Source: Deltaproteobacteria bacterium HGW-Deltaproteobacteria-8
GTDB lineage: Bacteria > Desulfobacterota > Desulfovibrionia > Desulfovibrionales > Desulfovibrionaceae
Direction: 5' to 3'
DNA: 64,000 nucleotides
Assembly: GCA_002840405.1 (NCBI GenBank)
Contig: PHAR01000004.1
Coordinates: 408,239-472,238 of the forward strand
The position numbers and the translations under genes were made by a program. Positions 375 to 59,906 of this stretch are shown here, piece by piece. Each line of letters starts with the position of its first letter. Positions within the stretch are counted from its first letter, which is position 1. Under the pieces are notes generated by a model. The model searched no databases and was not told the origin of the DNA. It worked only from the letters and a program-made list of their open reading frames with translations.

Positions 375-565
375 CCCCGGCCTCGCCCGACGCCCACCCC
401 TGCCCTTTTCCCGGCGCACCAGATCCGGGCGCCCAGCACCACGCCGAGACACAACGCCACAGCATCGCGGCCCGCGCGGCCTCAGAGCATTCGCCAGGGC
501 ATGCCCCTGGCAATGCCGGTCCGGCAGGTCCAGTCGGCAGGTCTGGTCGGCAGGGATTTCCGGGA

Positions 566-39845: not shown

Positions 39846-39921
39846 TCCCCGGTAGCTCAATCGGCAGAGCGGGTGGCTGTTAACCACTAGGTTCGCGGTT
39901 CAAGTCCGTGCCGGGGAGCCA
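39846..39921 (+). tRNA. tRNA-Asn(GTT)
   Basis: The 76-base sequence folds as a tRNA. The acceptor stem is TCCCCGG (39846-39852) with CCGGGGA (39911-39917), and D, anticodon and T arms are all present. The seven-base anticodon loop CTGTTAA gives anticodon GTT. A CCA end is encoded (39919-39921). It is followed at once by a strong terminator, and an accessory-looking gene cassette lies downstream. As a GUN-anticodon tRNA it is a substrate of the Tgt enzyme encoded in this window. Confidence 0.98.
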
Positions 39922-39934
39922 AAAGTTAGAGGCA

Positions 39935-39963
39935 CGTAAGACGCAAGTCTTACGGGCCTTTTT
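39935..39963 (+). terminator. rho-independent terminator after tRNA-Asn
   Basis: A perfect eight-base stem CGTAAGAC (39935-39942) and GTCTTACG (39947-39954), with a four-base loop, is followed by GGCC and five T residues (39959-39963). Confidence 0.9.
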
Positions 39964-40228
39964 CCGTGGCGCGGCCTGGGGCGCTGCTGTCGCGCCAATT
40001 TTGTGATTCATCGTGGTGGAGAGAGGCGGCGCGGCATGAACATGCCTGCGCCCCTTCCTTCGAGATCCCCCCCCGCACAAGGGGCGACACACCGACGTCG
40101 CTGCCAAGCTCACGAACGCCGACGCCTGAGCGACCAGGGCGACGACAAGAGTTGGCCGGACGAATGTTTTGACGACCAGAGCCTCCGCTGGCCCCGACTC
40201 TGGCGACAACAAATAATTGCATTGATCA
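39964..40228 (+). other. non-coding stretch between tRNA-Asn terminator and marR
   Basis: About 265 bases with no convincing gene on either strand. Base use is more mixed than in the core genes around it, and the stretch ends in an A/T-rich segment (40209-40231) likely to hold the marR promoter. No copy of the tRNA 3' end and no integrase remnant was found in it. Confidence 0.4.
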
Positions 40229-40241
40229 TTGACAAGGTCAA
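40229..40241. promoter_or_regulatory. candidate operator palindrome before marR
   Basis: TTGAC-AAG-GTCAA is a perfect inverted repeat with five-base arms and a three-base centre. It extends imperfectly to 40226-40244 and lies right at the marR start. MarR-family repressors usually bind palindromes of about this size in their own promoter. Confidence 0.45.
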
Positions 40242-40243
40242 CG

Positions 40244-40726
40244 ATGCGCCCTATCAGCAATGCCATGAACGACAGCAGCACTGGATTTGAAAAAAATCAC
40301 CACCGAGGCGACGAGCCGCACCTCTTCCGGGAAGTTATCCGCACCTACCAGGTGCTCATGGCCAGCTTCTCGCGGGAGATTGGGATGCCGGCGTCGCGGC
40401 TGGCGCTGATGCGGCTGTTGGCCATCGCCGATGCCGACGTCGGCGTCATGGATCTCGCCCGTCAGCTCGGCGTCAACGCGGCAGCGGTCACGCGGCAGGT
40501 GCAGGAAATGGAAGGCGAAGGGCTCATCCGGCGGCGAGCCGACCCCAAGGACGGCCGTCGCAGCCACGTCAAGCTGTCGCCGAAAGGCCTGAAGCTGTTC
40601 AAGGAGATCCACGACCGCAGCCACGAGCTTGAGCGGTCGCTGTCATCAGCGATCAACACCGAGGAGATGGCCGCAGCGACTGCAGTTCTCGTGAAGCTGC
40701 GCGCCTTCTTCGAGGAACGCCACTGA
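40244..40726 (+). CDS. MarR-family transcriptional regulator
   Basis: The product is about 160 residues and shows the MarR winged-helix pattern: helices near PASRLALMRLLAIADADVGVMDLARQLGVNAAAVTRQVQEMEGEGLI, then the wing with RRRADPKDGRRSHVKLSPKGLKLF. The start ATG 40244 has AAGG six bases upstream; ATG 40265 is an alternative giving a usual length of 153. MarR proteins respond to small aromatic ligands or oxidants and repress neighbouring genes, here presumably the DUF4405 and methyltransferase genes that follow by 20 and 1 bases. A palindrome overlaps its start region. Confidence 0.87.
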   Translation: MRPISNAMNDSSTGFEKNHHRGDEPHLFREVIRTYQVLMASFSREIGMPASRLALMRLLAIADADVGVMDLARQLGVNAAAVTRQVQEMEGEGLIRRRADPKDGRRSHVKLSPKGLKLFKEIHDRSHELERSLSSAINTEEMAAATAVLVKLRAFFEERH

Positions 40727-40746
40727 GACCGGAGGGGATTCGGAGC

Positions 40747-41097
40747 ATGAAATCTGAGCAACAGACAAGGGCGTTCAGTACCCGGGCCTTTGTGGCCCTG
40801 ATGATCTGCTTCAGCGGTCTCGGCCTGCCCGTGACGGGCATCGCCAACCACATCTACGGGTTCTCCCCGCCGACGTTCGAGCGTCACGCGTGGATGTCCG
40901 CCCACAACGCCCTCGGCATCCTGTTCGTGGTGTTCTCGATCTGGCACGTGTTGCTCAACAGCCGCGCCCTGTGGAGCCACGTGAGGAGCGCTGCCGGAGG
41001 CCTTCCGGCCATCAGTCGCGAGGCGCTGCTCGCTGGCGCATTCGTGGCGCTGACGCTGCTGGTGTTCGTTGGCCACGCCTTCCATGGGGGGCGTTGA
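40747..41097 (+). CDS. DUF4405 small membrane protein
   Basis: A 116-residue membrane protein with three hydrophobic segments (about 13-33, 53-69 and 93-112). The middle pattern HAWMSAHNALGILFVVFSIWHVLLNSRALWSH has spaced His residues in the membrane helices, the DUF4405 hallmark. The family has been linked to b-type-cytochrome-like heme binding, but no biochemical role is proven. The gene lies between marR and the UbiG-like gene with tiny gaps, so the three are likely one transcript. The paired His residues suggest heme-mediated redox, but this is inference. Confidence 0.83.
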   Translation: MKSEQQTRAFSTRAFVALMICFSGLGLPVTGIANHIYGFSPPTFERHAWMSAHNALGILFVVFSIWHVLLNSRALWSHVRSAAGGLPAISREALLAGAFVALTLLVFVGHAFHGGR

Positions 41098-41098
41098 G

Positions 41099-41905
41099 AT
41101 GACGACCCAGCGGGTAGACAACGATCTTTACCGGCGCCTGGGGCACGCGTGGTGGGACGATGACGTCGGCGAGTTCAGCACCCTCCGCTTCTGGGTGAAC
41201 CCTGTCAGGTTCGGCTACTTCAAGCGCGTGATCGACCAAGAGAAGGTACTCGAACGTGGGAAGAGGAAGCTCCTGGACGTCGGTTGCGGGGGCGGCCTTC
41301 TCGCCGAAGAGTTCGCGCGCGCCGGGTTCGAAGTGGCCGGAATCGATCCGGCGCCGGAGACCATCGACACGGCCCGAGCGCATGCGTCCACGTCGGGGCT
41401 GCCCATTGAGTACGAGCTCGGCTCCGGCGAACACCTGCCGTATCCAGACGGATCCTTCGACCACGTGGCCTGTTGCGATGTCCTCGAGCACGTCGATGAT
41501 GTCGATCGCGTGGTCGGCGAAATCTCACGGGTGCTCAGGCCGGGCGGCCTGTTCCTGTACGACACCGTCAACCGGACCTTCATGAGCAAGCTGGCGGTGA
41601 TAAAGATCATGCAGGACTGGCCGTCCACGGCCATCAGCAACCAGCCGAACGCGCATGTCTGGGACCGGTTCATCAAGCCTGCGGAGCTGGTCACTCTCCT
41701 CGATCGTCATGGGCTCGACCAGCGGGAGATGCGCGGGATCTCACCCCGGCGCAATCCCATCGCGACCCTGTTGGATCTCCGCCAGCGAGTGAAGGGCAAG
41801 ATCACTTTCAAGGAGCTGGGCCGGCGGCTTGCTCTCCGTGAGTGCGACAGCCTCAGCGTGTCCTACATGGGATACGCGGTGAAGGGGCGCGATAACAGGG
41901 GATAA
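41099..41905 (+). CDS. UbiG-like SAM-dependent O-methyltransferase
   Basis: The 268-residue protein starts at ATG 41099, one base after the upstream stop. It has motif I LLDVGCGGGLLAEEFA near residue 58, GFEVAGIDPAPETID, LPYPDGSFDHVACCDVLEHVDDVD, and LRPGGLFLYDTVNRT, all very close to UbiG, which methylates catechol and hydroquinone intermediates of ubiquinone. Sulfate reducers normally use menaquinone, so the substrate may be another quinone-like or phenolic molecule. The region has codon use less biased than neighbouring core genes. Its partner genes are marR and DUF4405. Confidence 0.83.
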   Translation: MTTQRVDNDLYRRLGHAWWDDDVGEFSTLRFWVNPVRFGYFKRVIDQEKVLERGKRKLLDVGCGGGLLAEEFARAGFEVAGIDPAPETIDTARAHASTSGLPIEYELGSGEHLPYPDGSFDHVACCDVLEHVDDVDRVVGEISRVLRPGGLFLYDTVNRTFMSKLAVIKIMQDWPSTAISNQPNAHVWDRFIKPAELVTLLDRHGLDQREMRGISPRRNPIATLLDLRQRVKGKITFKELGRRLALRECDSLSVSYMGYAVKGRDNRG

Positions 41906-53800: not shown

Positions 53801-55501
53801 ATGGGATCTCACATGCCCTCATTCCATCAGCTCATCGCGGACACATCTCACCACTGGGAAATCCTGGAGGACATGGCCGGACGGACGGAGTACTGCTCGC
53901 CGTCGTGCCTGGCGCTTACGGGGTTCGGCCCGGAGCACTTCCTGGGCCGCACCGACGTCCTGACGGGCCTGGCGCACTCCGCCAGCAGGGGCGAGCTGGA
54001 CGAGTTCCTGACCGGGCTGCGCAACGGCCCGACGAACATGTCCAAGAGCCTGGAGCTGCGCATCGTCACCGAAGACGGCCTGAGCCGCTGGGTGGTCTGC
54101 CACGCCCGGCGCGTCACCTCGTCTGACGGGCGGATGTTCCTGCGCGCCTCCCTGCGCGACATCAGCCGCCGCAAGGCCCTGGACATGGAACTCAAGTCCT
54201 CCCGCCTGCGGGACCCCGTCACCGGCCTGTACAACCGCGCCTGGTGCATGGAGACCCTCCAGCGGCAGCTGAAAATACACGCCCCCGGGACCTACTTTTC
54301 TGTGACCGTGATGGACATCGACCGGCTGAAGAAGGTCAACGACACTCTCGGGCCGGCCTACGGCGACGAGATCATCCGCATGGCCGCCGAGCGCATCGCC
54401 GCCACCATGGCCCCACCGGACTCGGCCAGCCGCATCTCCGGCGACGGCTTCGCCCTGCTCTTCCCCGGCAAGTCCCCGCGCGAGGTCATCAAGCACATCA
54501 AGCGCATCCAGGCCCTCATGGCCGCGCCCTTCGACCTGCGCGGGCACGAGGTCACCATCACCGCCAGCGCGGGCATCGTGGTCAGCCCCATGCCAGGCGA
54601 CAAGCCCGAGGACGTGCTGCGCAACGCCAACATCGCGCTCAGGCGGGCCAAGGCCAACACCCACCACCGCTACAAGGTCTTCCACTCGCGCATGTTCATC
54701 GAGAGCTCGCGGCAGATGGAGATCGAGATCGACCTGGACGCGGGCCTGCGGAACGCCGAATTTTTCCTGGAATACCAGCCCATCGTCTGCCTGGAGACGA
54801 AGCGGCTCAAGAGCGTGGAGGCCCTGCTGCGCTGGAACCACCCGCGCCACGGCGTCATGCGGCCCGACGAGTTTTTGCCCGTGGCCGAGGCCACGGACTT
54901 CATCGTGCCTCTGGGCGAGTGGGTGCTGCGCCGGGCCTGCGCGGACATGGTGGCCCTCATGGCCGACCACCCGGAGTTGACCGACCTGTCCATGAGCGTG
55001 AACATCTCCGCCCGGCAGCTGGCCCAGCACAACATCGCCGAGACCGTGGCCGAGGTGCTGCGCGAGACCGGCATGGAGCCCACGCGCCTGAAACTGGAGC
55101 TCACCGAGACCATGGCCATGGAAAACCCGGCGCTCACTGCCCAGCGCCTGCACACCATCAAGGCCCTGGGCGTCAAGATCAGCATCGACGACTTCGGCAC
55201 CGGCTACTCGTCCCTGTCCTCCCTGCAGAACTTCCCCATCGACACCATCAAGGTGGACAAGAGCTTTGTGGGCAAGATGGACACAAGCGCCGAGCAGCGC
55301 AAGATCGTGCGTTCGGTGATCTCCCTGGCCCACAGCCTGGACCTGGACGTGGTGGCCGAGGGCATCGAGATGCGCGAGCAGTGGTCCATGCTCAAGGTGC
55401 TGGACTGCCAGAGCGGTCAGGGCTTCCTGTTCTCGCACCCGGTGGACATGGCCAAGCTGCGCACGTTCATCTGCAAGGCCAGCCCGCAGGTCAAACAGTA
55501 G
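53801..55501 (+). CDS. PAS-GGDEF-EAL c-di-GMP phosphodiesterase (degenerate GGDEF)
   Basis: The 566-residue soluble protein has an N-terminal PAS domain (about 15-125), a GGDEF domain (about 135-300) and an EAL domain (about 310-560). The GGDEF active site is SGDGF, so it should not make c-di-GMP. The EAL set is intact: VEALLRWNHP, SVNISARQL, LELTETMAM, IDDFGTGYSSLSSLQNF, VAEGIEM. It should degrade c-di-GMP to pGpG. It is convergent with the diguanylate cyclase at 55491 and overlaps it by 11 bases. No good ribosome binding site precedes the ATG at 53801; ATG 53813 is an alternative. Confidence 0.9.
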   Translation: MGSHMPSFHQLIADTSHHWEILEDMAGRTEYCSPSCLALTGFGPEHFLGRTDVLTGLAHSASRGELDEFLTGLRNGPTNMSKSLELRIVTEDGLSRWVVCHARRVTSSDGRMFLRASLRDISRRKALDMELKSSRLRDPVTGLYNRAWCMETLQRQLKIHAPGTYFSVTVMDIDRLKKVNDTLGPAYGDEIIRMAAERIAATMAPPDSASRISGDGFALLFPGKSPREVIKHIKRIQALMAAPFDLRGHEVTITASAGIVVSPMPGDKPEDVLRNANIALRRAKANTHHRYKVFHSRMFIESSRQMEIEIDLDAGLRNAEFFLEYQPIVCLETKRLKSVEALLRWNHPRHGVMRPDEFLPVAEATDFIVPLGEWVLRRACADMVALMADHPELTDLSMSVNISARQLAQHNIAETVAEVLRETGMEPTRLKLELTETMAMENPALTAQRLHTIKALGVKISIDDFGTGYSSLSSLQNFPIDTIKVDKSFVGKMDTSAEQRKIVRSVISLAHSLDLDVVAEGIEMREQWSMLKVLDCQSGQGFLFSHPVDMAKLRTFICKASPQVKQ

Positions 55502-57485
55502 AGATCACTCCAGCAGCAGGAAGCGTTCCGGCCATGCGGAAGGCGTTGCCTCCGGCTCGCTTGGCCGCATACATGGCCGCGTCGGCCCGGCCGAGCAGAC
55601 TGTCCTGGTCCTGGCCATGCTCCGGGTAGCAGGCCAGCCCCACCGAAGCGCCCAGGAACATCTTCCCGTCCGCCACCTTCGGATCAAACAACGCCGCCAG
55701 CACCTTCTCGGCCACGGCCTCGGCATCCTTGGCTCCGGCCAGGTCCGGCAACACGATGACGAACTCGTCGCCGCCCAGACGGGCCACGGTGTCGGACTCG
55801 CGCACGCAGGCCTTGAGCCGGAGCGTGGTCTCCATGAGCACCCTGTCGCCGTGGGCGTGGCCGTAGGTGTCGTTCAGGGACTTGAAGTGGTCCAGGTCCA
55901 CGAACAGGAGGCCCACGCCGATGTTGTTGCGCCGGGCGCGGCGCAGGGCCTGCTTCAGGCGGTCCACGAAGAGCTGGCGGTTGGGCAGGCCGGTGAGCGA
56001 GTCGTGCAGGGCCATGTGCCGCACGCGCTCCTCGCTGACCTTGAGCGCGCTGACGTCCTGGGCGTTTATGACCACGTGGCCGCCGGGCATGCGCGAGACC
56101 TTCATGCGGCACCAGCACTGTCCGCCATCGCGGTGCAGGAAGGGGAACACGCGCTCCGGCGGGTCCTCCTGCGTCATGTCGCTCATGAGGTTGACCACAA
56201 AGGACTGGCGGTCCTCCTCGGTGGCGAAGATGCGGTCGGCCAGGACCGCCAGGGAGGGCACCTCGCGCACGGAGTAGCCGAACAGGCGCTGCATGCCGGG
56301 GTTGTCGTAGATGAGCGTGCCGTTCTTGTCGGCCAAGGCGATGCCGTCAAAGGAGCTCTGCAGGATGGCCCCGCGCTCGCGGCCCTCCATCTCCAGGCGC
56401 GAGTAAAGGTCGGCGAGGTCGCCGGTCATGACGTTGAAAGCCTTGGCCAGGTTGCCCAGCTCGTCCCCGGTCATGACCTGCGCGCGCACGGACAGGTCGC
56501 CCCCGGCCACGGCCATGGCGGCCCTGGTCACGGCCAGGATGGGCCGCGCCACGCGCCGGGAGAACACGAACACCCCCAGGCCCAGGCAGGCGGCCATGGC
56601 CAGCCCCACCAGCACGGTGACCAGGGCCAGCTGCCGGGCCGAGGCAAAGGCCTCAGCCTGGGACATCTCGGCCAAGAGCGCCATCTGGTAGGAGCCCAGC
56701 CAGCGGTACACCCCCACCACAGGCACCCCGGCGTCATTGAGGTACAGCCCCTGCCCGCTGCCCCCGGCCAGGGCGCGCTGGATGCCCTCAGTGTGGGCCT
56801 GGCGGCCCATGCCCAGGAGGCCCTTGCGGCCCGAGGCCACCAGGACGTTGGAGGAATCCACCAGATAGGTCTCCCCGGTCTCGCCCAGACCCGCCCGGGA
56901 GCGGATGATCTGGTCGATGCGCTCCAGCCCCAGGTGCACGGCCAGCACGGCCAGCAACTGGCCGGACTCGTCCTTCACGGGCATGCTCACCGTCAGGATG
57001 GGCCGCAGGGATTCCGGCGAGAGGTAGACGCTCTGCACCGTCGGCTCCTGCCGGCCCTGGGTGTAGAAATTGTACCTGGCCCGGTAGCCGCCGATGTTGG
57101 ACAACTCCGTGGAGAGCAGCACGCGGCCGCCCGTGGGGGCCAGCACCAGGATCTCGCGCACATCCGGCTGGGCGGCCATGTAGTCGCGAAAATGAGCAAG
57201 CAGGCGCTGCGCTGCACGCTGGTCCAGCCCATGGCCGGTGGAGAACTGGGAGGCAGTCGAGGCGCCAACGAACTGCAGGTCCCGCAGGCGCTCCTCCACC
57301 CACAGGGCCAGGTCCGTCTCCTTCTGGCGACTGGCGGAGTCAAGACGGGCGAACGCCGCCTGGCGCAGGAAGGCCCGCCCTGTCAGGTAGCTGGCCGCAC
57401 CCATGCAAGCCACGCCCAGGAGCGCAAACACCAGAGAGGTGCTCACCAGCCGGGCCACCAGGCTTTTCCGGATGAGGTTGTTCAT
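55491..57485 (-). CDS. membrane sensor diguanylate cyclase (dCache-HAMP-PAS-GGDEF)
   Basis: The 664-residue protein starts at ATG 57485. It has an N-terminal membrane span (LVSTSLVFALLGVACMGAASYL), a periplasmic dCache-type sensor domain (about 30-275), a second span (LVTVLVGLAMAACLGLGVFVF), a HAMP linker (MAVAGGDLSVRAQVMTGDELG), a PAS domain (about 370-490) and a GGDEF domain. The GGDEF motif RLGGDEF is intact, and an inhibitory RxxD site (RESD) lies five residues before it. It should make c-di-GMP in response to an outside signal. It follows two binding-lipoprotein genes by 19 bases. Confidence 0.92.
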   Translation of the reverse strand: MNNLIRKSLVARLVSTSLVFALLGVACMGAASYLTGRAFLRQAAFARLDSASRQKETDLALWVEERLRDLQFVGASTASQFSTGHGLDQRAAQRLLAHFRDYMAAQPDVREILVLAPTGGRVLLSTELSNIGGYRARYNFYTQGRQEPTVQSVYLSPESLRPILTVSMPVKDESGQLLAVLAVHLGLERIDQIIRSRAGLGETGETYLVDSSNVLVASGRKGLLGMGRQAHTEGIQRALAGGSGQGLYLNDAGVPVVGVYRWLGSYQMALLAEMSQAEAFASARQLALVTVLVGLAMAACLGLGVFVFSRRVARPILAVTRAAMAVAGGDLSVRAQVMTGDELGNLAKAFNVMTGDLADLYSRLEMEGRERGAILQSSFDGIALADKNGTLIYDNPGMQRLFGYSVREVPSLAVLADRIFATEEDRQSFVVNLMSDMTQEDPPERVFPFLHRDGGQCWCRMKVSRMPGGHVVINAQDVSALKVSEERVRHMALHDSLTGLPNRQLFVDRLKQALRRARRNNIGVGLLFVDLDHFKSLNDTYGHAHGDRVLMETTLRLKACVRESDTVARLGGDEFVIVLPDLAGAKDAEAVAEKVLAALFDPKVADGKMFLGASVGLACYPEHGQDQDSLLGRADAAMYAAKRAGGNAFRMAGTLPAAGVISTV

Positions 57486-57504
57486 GCGCGCCGGCTCTCG
57501 CAGT

Positions 57505-58692
57505 TCATGGCGCCGCCTTCGAGGTCTTGCGGCTGTGGACCTGCCCGCCCTCGATGGCCAGGACATGGGCGCCGCGCACTGCGTCGCCCCCCTGCTCGAA
57601 AGACAACCGTCCGGTCAGCCCCTCGTACCCGCGCAGCGAGGCGATGCCTTCGCGCAGCAACACCGGGTCAACGCTGCCCGCCGCCTTGGCTCCAGCCAGG
57701 ACCACCCCCAGGGCGTCCAGGGTCAGGGCCGCGTTCTTGTCCAGCGGCGCACCCAGCTCCCGCTGGTACCGCTCCACCTCCTGGCGGGCCGGGCCGGCCA
57801 TGGACTCCAGTGCATAGTCCGAGCTGAAGAACGAGCCCTCGGCCTGGGGCAGCGCCTGGATGCTCTGGTCCAGAGCCCAGGCGTCTCCGCCCAGAAACAC
57901 CCCGGTAAAGCCTGCGGCCCTGGCCTGGATGATCTGGCGGCTCAGGTCCGCCGGGAAATTGGGCAAAAACAGGGCCTGGGCGCCGGAGGCCCGGATGCGC
58001 GCGAGCTGGGCCGCGAAGTCTGACGCCCCGGTGGCGTAGATTTCCCGAGCCGTCACCTGCCCGCCCAGGCCGGTGAAGGACTCGCTGAACAGAAGCGCCA
58101 GCCCCCTGGGATAGGCGTCGGCCTCGTCGTAGAGCACCGCCGCCCGGCGCAGGCTCAGGTCCTCGCGAGCGAACTGGGCCATGATCCGGCCCTGCACCGT
58201 GTCCACCAGGCAAACCCGGAAGACATATCGGCGGCCCTTGGTCAGCGGCGGGCTGCTGGCCGAGGGGCTGACCAGGGGGATCCGGGCGCTCTCGGCCACG
58301 TCGGCCACGGGCAGGGCGTCGCGGCTGAAATACGGCCCCACCAGGGCCGACACCCGCTTCTGGTGGATGAGCCGCGCGGCGGCGGTCATGATGCCCTCCA
58401 CCTGGCCGCCGGTGTCCTCCAGCAGCAACCGGACCTTGACCCGCCTGCCGCCAAGGTCCAGGCCGCCCTCGGCGTTGACGCGCGCAACGGATAGCTCCGC
58501 CGCGCGCCGGGAGATGTCCAGGGAGGGGCTGCAGGAAACCGGCACCAGAAACCCGATGCGGAGATCCTCCTCCGGGGCTTCCGCCCTGGAGCAGGCGGCC
58601 AGCGACGCCAATAATGCCCATGACGCCAACGCACACAACACCGCCAGCGAGAACAACGCCCCGCGCACGTGTGCTCTTCTGCGACCCGTCAC
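57505..58692 (-). CDS. periplasmic amino-acid-type substrate-binding lipoprotein (Peripla_BP_6)
   Basis: The 395-residue protein has a GTG start overlapping the upstream gene's stop (GTGA). Its lipoprotein signal has lipobox SLAAC (Cys near residue 34). It has the type I periplasmic-binding fold of leucine-isoleucine-valine-type receptors (RIGFLVPVSCSPSLDISRRAAELSVARVNAEGG, ALVGPYFSRDALPVADVAESARIPLVSPSASSPPL). No ABC permease or ATPase is present in the locus. It lies 19 bases upstream of the diguanylate cyclase, so it may present a ligand to that sensor. The ligand is unknown. Confidence 0.85.
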   Translation of the reverse strand: MTGRRRAHVRGALFSLAVLCALASWALLASLAACSRAEAPEEDLRIGFLVPVSCSPSLDISRRAAELSVARVNAEGGLDLGGRRVKVRLLLEDTGGQVEGIMTAAARLIHQKRVSALVGPYFSRDALPVADVAESARIPLVSPSASSPPLTKGRRYVFRVCLVDTVQGRIMAQFAREDLSLRRAAVLYDEADAYPRGLALLFSESFTGLGGQVTAREIYATGASDFAAQLARIRASGAQALFLPNFPADLSRQIIQARAAGFTGVFLGGDAWALDQSIQALPQAEGSFFSSDYALESMAGPARQEVERYQRELGAPLDKNAALTLDALGVVLAGAKAAGSVDPVLLREGIASLRGYEGLTGRLSFEQGGDAVRGAHVLAIEGGQVHSRKTSKAAP

Positions 58693-59906
58693 CGCAGCCC
58701 CCCCCCAAGTTTTGGCCCAACACCCGGCGCACGCCCTGGCACCGCACTGCGAAGGGTTCCGGCGAAGCGGATGCCCTTGTGGGTGATCTCCAGGATCTGG
58801 GCGTCACGCTCGGGCGTGCCCGAGACATAGCGCCCCAGGCCGGCAACGCCGGCATACTCCCTTGTCTCCATCAGGGCTGCGGCCAGGGCCTGGGGGTCCA
58901 TGGACTGGGCCTGCCCGGCGGCGCGAAACAGGAGGCCAAAGGCGTCGTACACCAGAGCCGCCACAGAGCTTGGCTGGTGGCCGAAGGACGAAACATAGCG
59001 CTCCATGAACCCGCGCGAGGCCTCGGACTGAGGCCCCCCGGGATGCCAGGGCACGAGGAAGCGCGCGCCGACCATGCCGTCCAGATCCCGGGCCTGCAAC
59101 AGGTCCCAGCCGTCCGGCCCCACCAGCAGGCCCTGGAAACCAAGGGCGCGCGCCTGGCGCACCAGCCGAGGGGCGGCAGTATGGTAGACCGGCAGGAACA
59201 AGACCTGGGGGCGCGTGAGCAGGAGCTGGCGCAACAGCGTTTTGCTGTCTTTTTCGGCCGCCAGGTACCCCGCCAGAGCCGGGCGCTGGCCGCCCTGAGC
59301 CGCGAAGGCCTGCTGGAAATCCGTGGCCAGGGTGCTGGAATAGACGATGGTCTGGTCGTAGAGCACCGCCGCGCGCGCCGCGCGCTGGCCACGGCACAGC
59401 CGCGCCAGAGCCTGGGCCTGGAAGGCATCGGAATAGGGTGTGCGGTAGACATAGTGTCGGCCGCTCGTGAGTTGCGGGGTGGTGGCGCCGGGGCTGATGA
59501 AGGGCGTGCGCAGCTCCTCAGCCAGGGCGGCCATGGGCAGCGCCTGGGACGAGGTGGCCCCGCCAATGATGGCGGCCGCGCCAGAGGCCAGGGCCCGGCG
59601 CATGGCGCGCAGGCCGTCCTCCACACCCGGCCCGTGGGTAATCACCTCCACCCTGAGGGCAGCCTGCCCCCGGGGCGTGGTGATGCCACCCTGACGGGCC
59701 ACGTCGCGGCGCACCAGCTCGGCGGCGTTGCGGTACTCCACATCAAGGCCGGTGGCGTCGCCGCCCTCGGCCACCAGCAGCGCCACCAAGATCTCCTCCT
59801 GGGAGCTCTTGGGCACAGGGTCGCACGAGGCCAGGCAAAGCGCCGCAGCCAGGACCAGCATCATCAACCGCGCCACGGCGGCATGGGTGCATCCGCTCAC
59901 TCGCAT
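58689..59906 (-). CDS. periplasmic amino-acid-type substrate-binding lipoprotein (Peripla_BP_6)
   Basis: The 405-residue protein starts at ATG 59906 with GGAG six bases upstream. Its lipoprotein signal has lipobox LCLASC. The mature protein shows the receptor-family ligand fold (VALLVAEGGDATGLDVEYRNAAELVRRDV, AAIIGGATSSQALPMAALAEELRTPFISPGATTPQL). It is paired with the second binding lipoprotein and the diguanylate cyclase; the three genes form an operon with four-base and 19-base junctions. The two receptors are only distantly alike, so they may bind different ligands or form a hetero-pair. Confidence 0.85.
   Translation of the reverse strand: MRVSGCTHAAVARLMMLVLAAALCLASCDPVPKSSQEEILVALLVAEGGDATGLDVEYRNAAELVRRDVARQGGITTPRGQAALRVEVITHGPGVEDGLRAMRRALASGAAAIIGGATSSQALPMAALAEELRTPFISPGATTPQLTSGRHYVYRTPYSDAFQAQALARLCRGQRAARAAVLYDQTIVYSSTLATDFQQAFAAQGGQRPALAGYLAAEKDSKTLLRQLLLTRPQVLFLPVYHTAAPRLVRQARALGFQGLLVGPDGWDLLQARDLDGMVGARFLVPWHPGGPQSEASRGFMERYVSSFGHQPSSVAALVYDAFGLLFRAAGQAQSMDPQALAAALMETREYAGVAGLGRYVSGTPERDAQILEITHKGIRFAGTLRSAVPGRAPGVGPKLGGGLR

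Follow-up and report, generated by a model that had tools for sequence, protein, structure and literature searches.

It is accepted that periplasmic substrate-binding proteins (SBPs) can drive receptors of several types, cyclases among them (PMC9602780). SBP-driven c-di-GMP receptors amount to few examples so far, chiefly from Vibrio and rhizobia; one is NspS-MbaA of Vibrio cholerae, a polyamine receptor that controls c-di-GMP (PMC8967002). The Aeromonas dCache diguanylate cyclase SpdE senses Pro, Val and Ile directly, and a 2022 review notes that, as domains of c-di-GMP networks, the 27 PBP-clan families had received no study apart from SBP_bac_3 (PMC8846402). Our literature searches, for Desulfovibrio GGDEF proteins together with periplasmic binding proteins and for Peripla_BP_6 together with GGDEF, found no paper.

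Here we describe a locus within a 64,000-nucleotide stretch of DNA (the window) from Deltaproteobacteria bacterium HGW-Deltaproteobacteria-8, in which the genes for two LivJ-type (Peripla_BP_6) lipoproteins, BP1 and BP2, precede the gene for a membrane-bound cyclase, DGC. The features, in positions of the window, are:

59906..58689, minus strand: BP1, 405 aa, ATG start; Peripla_BP_6 (E=2e-36), lipoprotein
58689..58692, minus strand: 4-base overlap (GTGA) of the BP1 stop and the BP2 start, read from the sequence
58692..57505, minus strand: BP2, 395 aa, GTG start; Peripla_BP_6 (E=6.7e-51), lipoprotein
57485..55491, minus strand: DGC, 664 aa; dCache_1-HAMP-PAS-GGDEF, all domains above the Pfam cut-offs
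56550..57485, minus strand: sensor part of DGC (residues 1-312), with the N-terminal TM, the dCache and the second TM
53801..55501, plus strand: convergent PAS-(degenerate GGDEF)-EAL protein (Pfam), an accessory neighbour whose membership of the unit is unproven

Pfam and the sequence thus bear out the layout given in an earlier note on this DNA, with two Peripla_BP_6 lipoproteins and a dCache-HAMP-PAS-GGDEF cyclase on one strand, joined by a GTGA overlap and a gap of 19 bases between BP2 and DGC. The same 4-base overlap and 19-base gap are present in two other species (overlap: G004, G008). MurJ is encoded on the same strand, 113 bases upstream of BP1, and the remaining flanks, scanned from 49.2 to 62.7 kb, comprise a GluQ-like tRNA-synthetase family protein, glycosyltransferases and the convergent PAS-GGDEF-EAL protein. 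The last 11 bases of the DGC gene, its stop included, are shared with the gene for the latter; the EAL signature motifs are intact and the GGDEF position reads SGDGF, and the protein is a probable phosphodiesterase. We observed that this opposing pair is retained in some members of the genus (L054, L055, L059, L060 and L152) and missing in others. Elsewhere in the window, at 39846-41905, a tRNA-Asn is followed by several ORFs whose third-position GC is below that of most of the window; this may be an integrated element.

As the earlier note had remarked, no ABC permease or ATPase was found among the flanking genes scanned with Pfam (49.2-62.7 kb). A separate LIV-type ABC operon is present in the same genome on a different contig. 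An SBP that adjoins a receptor could also serve transport, and BP1 and BP2 might be uptake SBPs for a LIV-type permease encoded elsewhere, with the cyclase incidental or co-regulated. The presence of this operon is in keeping with such a role, as is the finding that, beyond the unit, the proteins most similar to BP1 and BP2 are LivJ homologs beside ABC genes. However, the operon has its own SBP, and LivJ-type operons of this sort occur in many Desulfovibrionaceae without BP1 or BP2. Furthermore, as described below, BP2 still adjoins DGC where the neighbourhood differs, and related dCache receptors have SBPs of other families. We consider a role in uptake to be very unlikely.

Both lipoproteins cover the whole Peripla_BP_6 domain, with scores of 126.8 (BP1) and 174.4 bits (BP2) against a Pfam gathering cut-off of 31.7. 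The BP1 lipobox, LASC, occupies residues 25-28 and is followed by Asp; that of BP2, LAAC, is followed by Ser. Cys28 is invariant in an alignment of 10 BP1/BP2 sequences, and a strict lipobox was found in 21 of 23. A lipobox is also found in 8 of 14 LivJ homologs, a set drawn mostly from ABC operons; the LivJ of the same genome is one of the eight. Thus, lipidation is rejected as a special mark of the unit, and the earlier suggestion that having both proteins lipidated is unusual found no support. In E. coli, Asp after the lipobox Cys causes lipoproteins to be retained in the inner membrane, a rule not established for this organism; among the BP1 and BP2 orthologs the residue varies.

The AlphaFold model of BP1 (pLDDT 88.8) has as its best PDB match the amino-acid binding protein LivK, 3td9 (Z 45.0, rmsd 2.0, 344 residues aligned), and matches further amino-acid binding proteins as well. 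In the alignment, S79, T102 and E226 of E. coli LBP, the residues by which it binds its ligand, correspond to S119, T142 and D265 of BP1 and to Ser, Ser and Asp in BP2. Because the LBP amino-acid contacts are kept in both proteins, the sequences support an amino-acid-like ligand, although none in particular. The pocket Asp is lost in the BP1 of one relative, G013. A TGA in that gene had made it a candidate pseudogene; this was rejected, as the TGA is the normal stop of the gene.

The GGDEF motif of DGC, at residue 571, is intact; five residues ahead of it is an RxxD I-site, and the GGDEF domain matches Pfam with 169 bits. By the intact GG(D/E)EF motif and the domain match, it is predicted to be a diguanylate cyclase. 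Two hydrophobic segments, the TM candidates, flank the dCache. The AlphaFold model of the sensor (pLDDT 78.7) has a dCache fold; it aligns with PscC (6mni) over 233 residues (Z 19.4, rmsd 2.8) and superposes on amino-acid chemoreceptor domains. LuxQ is absent among the structural matches listed, which proves nothing. We also observed that the C-terminal part of PDB 5ere (Dret_0059 of Desulfohalobium retbaense, an 'extracellular ligand binding receptor') matches the DGC dCache fold; a binding protein might be fused to it as the N-terminal domain, and a PBP_6-dCache fusion is only a lead.

Given this superposition, and given that many studied dCache_1 domains, such as that of SpdE, bind small ligands themselves (PMC8846402), the DGC dCache might bind its own ligand directly, with the SBPs just concentrating ligand at the membrane or forming a separate input. 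However, the known dCache_1AA amino-acid motif, an RxWY stretch and a terminal Asp (background in PMC10104139), is missing from the DGC sensor: the RxWY stretch is absent, and the position of the Asp in the GGD of PctA is taken by His184. In addition, the linkage of this sensor subfamily to SBPs far exceeds that of other dCache_1 receptors (see below). Direct sensing by DGC therefore seems unlikely to us.

The conservation of the unit was followed in 15 genomes of a Desulfovibrionaceae genus close to Desulfocurvus (g1) and in two further genera, g24 and g39. The closest records that bear a name are a Desulfocurvus MAG and Desulfovibrio MAGs. Many of the compared genomes are MAGs, the genes of the relatives were called by simple ORF rules, and the neighbour counts given here are small. 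Orthologs of the DGC sensor were found in 14 of the 15 g1 genomes, the missing one being 81% complete, and in g24 and g39; orthologs of BP2 were found in 12 of the 15 and again in g24 and g39. In two of the three g1 genomes without BP2 (G006 and G007), the contig ends inside DGC. In every case where the contig permits, BP2 lies immediately upstream of DGC. The pair adjoins MurJ in g1 and has other neighbourhoods in g24 (three genomes) and g39 (one genome). All three g24 genomes keep the complete BP1-BP2-DGC order, at a site unlike that in g1. A MurJ-neighbourhood effect can thus be ruled out, the unit being retained away from MurJ in g24 and g39. Beside the loci of the BP2-DGC orthologs we found no liv operon; in g24, one ORF with an ABC signature stands apart, on the other side. 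The three-gene order, whose conservation in related genomes the earlier note had proposed to check, is therefore kept in full in members of g1 and in g24, and as BP2-DGC in three genera.

In the tree, all BP1 sequences form one clade (100/99) and all BP2 sequences another, with LivJ proteins, mostly from ABC operons, adjacent. Since each clade includes g24 sequences, the duplication predates the split of g1 and g24, and a recent local duplication is ruled out. The sequences indicate that BP1 and BP2 are old paralogs and that BP1 has been lost repeatedly. About half of g1 lacks BP1, which is not needed for the unit; BP2 is the core receptor, and BP1 an additional one that evolves faster. One genome (G002) has a short frame retaining the BP1 signal peptide, and in another (G011) the sequence ahead of BP2 weakly resembles the C-terminus of BP1 (E 1.6e-4). 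In species that lost BP1, remnants lie in the interval between MurJ and BP2:

L056 1490-1723, minus strand: BP1 remnant
L059 about 430-537, plus strand: BP1 remnant

With BP1 absent or a remnant in many species, and with its long stem branch in the tree, it might be a functionless, decaying duplicate, BP2-DGC alone doing the work; this would be compatible with BP2 acting as a co-receptor. However, four species have an intact BP1, and its dN/dS in the three compared (0.39-0.46) is similar to that of BP2. It also keeps its lipobox and, mostly, its pocket residues, and is retained in all three g24 genomes. We therefore think it improbable that BP1 has no function where it is present. Overall, dN/dS was higher for the SBPs (about 0.4-0.55) than for DGC (about 0.25-0.39), with MurJ far more conserved still; faster evolution of the SBPs is expected if ligand specificity shifts on a stable platform.

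A genome scan with the DGC sensor alone as query picked up cyanobacterial relatives, most of them 30-36% identical, in which the dCache is part of hybrid histidine kinases and a lipoprotein of the SBP_bac_1/8 families is usually encoded directly upstream. More relatives came from a search of 395 Desulfobacterota genomes. Among the nine strongest of these from outside the family, six are immediately preceded by the gene for an NMT1/THI5-type SBP lipoprotein, in most cases with a 4-base overlap; these NMT1-linked receptors have histidine-kinase outputs. The dCache tree places the PBP_6-linked receptors together in a single clade (98/87) whose sister group is the cyanobacterial one (union 98/88), and the NMT1-linked receptors in a further clade. 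An SBP was linked to 16 of 20 members of this subfamily (three Desulfovibrionaceae genera, nine loci from Desulfobacterota and, for each of eight cyanobacterial genomes, its best locus). Subfamily members with no adjacent SBP include L170, L199, L201 and L202. In a control set of 28 dCache_1 receptors of other kinds, drawn from eight related genomes, 2 had an SBP upstream, and these two are mutual orthologs. The Fisher p of 2.5e-7 is a guide only, because the rows are not independent of each other, and the counts are small.

It is difficult to account for three SBP families at one position beside one sensor subfamily if the sensor does not work together with SBPs. We lean, by a modest degree, toward the idea that this dCache_1 subfamily serves lipid-anchored SBPs in general as a docking platform. 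The platform, with the signature YRW...ALLAEMSQAEAFAPA beside the membrane, would stay constant, while both the SBP family (Peripla_BP_6, SBP_bac_1/8 or NMT1) and the output (GGDEF or histidine kinase) are swapped; in Desulfovibrionaceae it would bear two different receptors simultaneously.

Other pairings of SBP and signalling genes were seen in passing. In the same genome, an NMT1-type SBP gene has a 4-base overlap with that for a dCache-HAMP-SpoIIE phosphatase receptor (L262 2-1003 and L304 2686-4812, C10), whose dCache belongs to a different group from that of DGC. Also in this genome, a Peripla_BP_6 lipoprotein is encoded immediately 5' of a HAMP-GGDEF protein with an N-terminal sensor region (L051 7311-10294, C6), and another Peripla_BP_6 protein precedes overlapping frames for sCache_3-HAMP and PAS-GGDEF-EAL (L049 4885-9109, C5), which may be two genes or a single gene whose frame is broken. 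A further, separate case of two tandem Peripla_BP_6 proteins, in which no lipobox was found, precedes a hybrid histidine kinase in a different genus of the family (L300 3281-8981). Peripla_BP_6 proteins also lie beside PAS histidine kinases in Desulfovibrionales (L064 9428-13005, L297 2609-6354, L302 704-4239 and L303 4118-7674; shown by Pfam for L064, L297 and L303). It seems that signalling systems have taken up LivJ-type proteins on more than one occasion.

Taken together, we favour, with reasonable confidence, the reading that BP1-BP2-DGC is a ligand-sensing c-di-GMP unit whose lipoproteins dock on the dCache. That the lipoproteins are co-receptors had been a guess from adjacency in the earlier note; at the level of sequence, it is now supported along three independent lines, by the conservation of BP2-DGC in three genera with varied neighbourhoods, by unrelated SBP families beside the same dCache subfamily in Cyanobacteria and other Desulfobacterota, and by a dCache without the amino-acid motif while the SBPs retain their contacts. 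Because close relatives of the sensor pair elsewhere with quite different anchored binding proteins, DGC probably reads its surroundings via such proteins and not alone. BP2, joined in some species by BP1, would be a LivJ-derived Venus-flytrap protein, lipid-anchored (putatively in the inner membrane) and binding an amino-acid-like ligand outside the cytoplasmic membrane. In one conformation, presumably the ligand-closed one, it would dock on the DGC dCache, and the signal would pass through the second TM helix to HAMP, PAS and GGDEF and alter c-di-GMP output, in one direction or the other. BP1, as the old paralog of BP2, probably modulates BP2 or contributes specificity for a second ligand. 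The dCache subfamily brought out by this comparison is recognisable, and its signals could be predicted from the adjacent binding protein, which would be of help in assigning ligands to many orphan receptors.

Among the known systems, NspS-MbaA appears to be a close parallel: there, the gene for a periplasmic binding protein overlaps that for a membrane c-di-GMP enzyme, and the protein reports a ligand and sets the activity of the enzyme. An SBP gene that adjoins the receptor gene and is conserved with it, as in systems of this type, is also found for BP2-DGC. However, NspS-MbaA has one SBP and the present locus two, and only here is the protein LivJ-type; NspS is a PotD-like SBP that is not known to be lipidated, and MbaA is a bifunctional GGDEF-EAL enzyme. 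BP1 and BP2 have the fold and core amino-acid contacts of E. coli LBP (1usg) and T. maritima LivK (3td9) but, unlike LIV/LBP-type SBPs, belong to an operon without permease or ATPase and with a receptor instead. SpdE is likewise a dCache_1 cyclase tied to small amino acids, but it binds the ligand itself, whereas here the dCache has no motif and the amino-acid contacts are in separate lipoproteins. An SBP gene also lies beside the receptor gene in LuxP-LuxQ, TorT-TorS and AgtS/AruS of P. aeruginosa (PMC11113362). In these SBP-activated kinases the SBP is a proposed or shown co-receptor, and LuxQ also has a Cache-type domain, but their output is a histidine kinase and their SBPs are of other families. 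Neither LuxP nor TorT is known to carry a lipid anchor. The operon would thus represent a LivJ-type, possibly two-input version of SBP-c-di-GMP signalling in sulfate reducers, and its differences from the known SBP-driven receptors are the LivJ-type lipoproteins, their presence as two in series, and the dCache cyclase.
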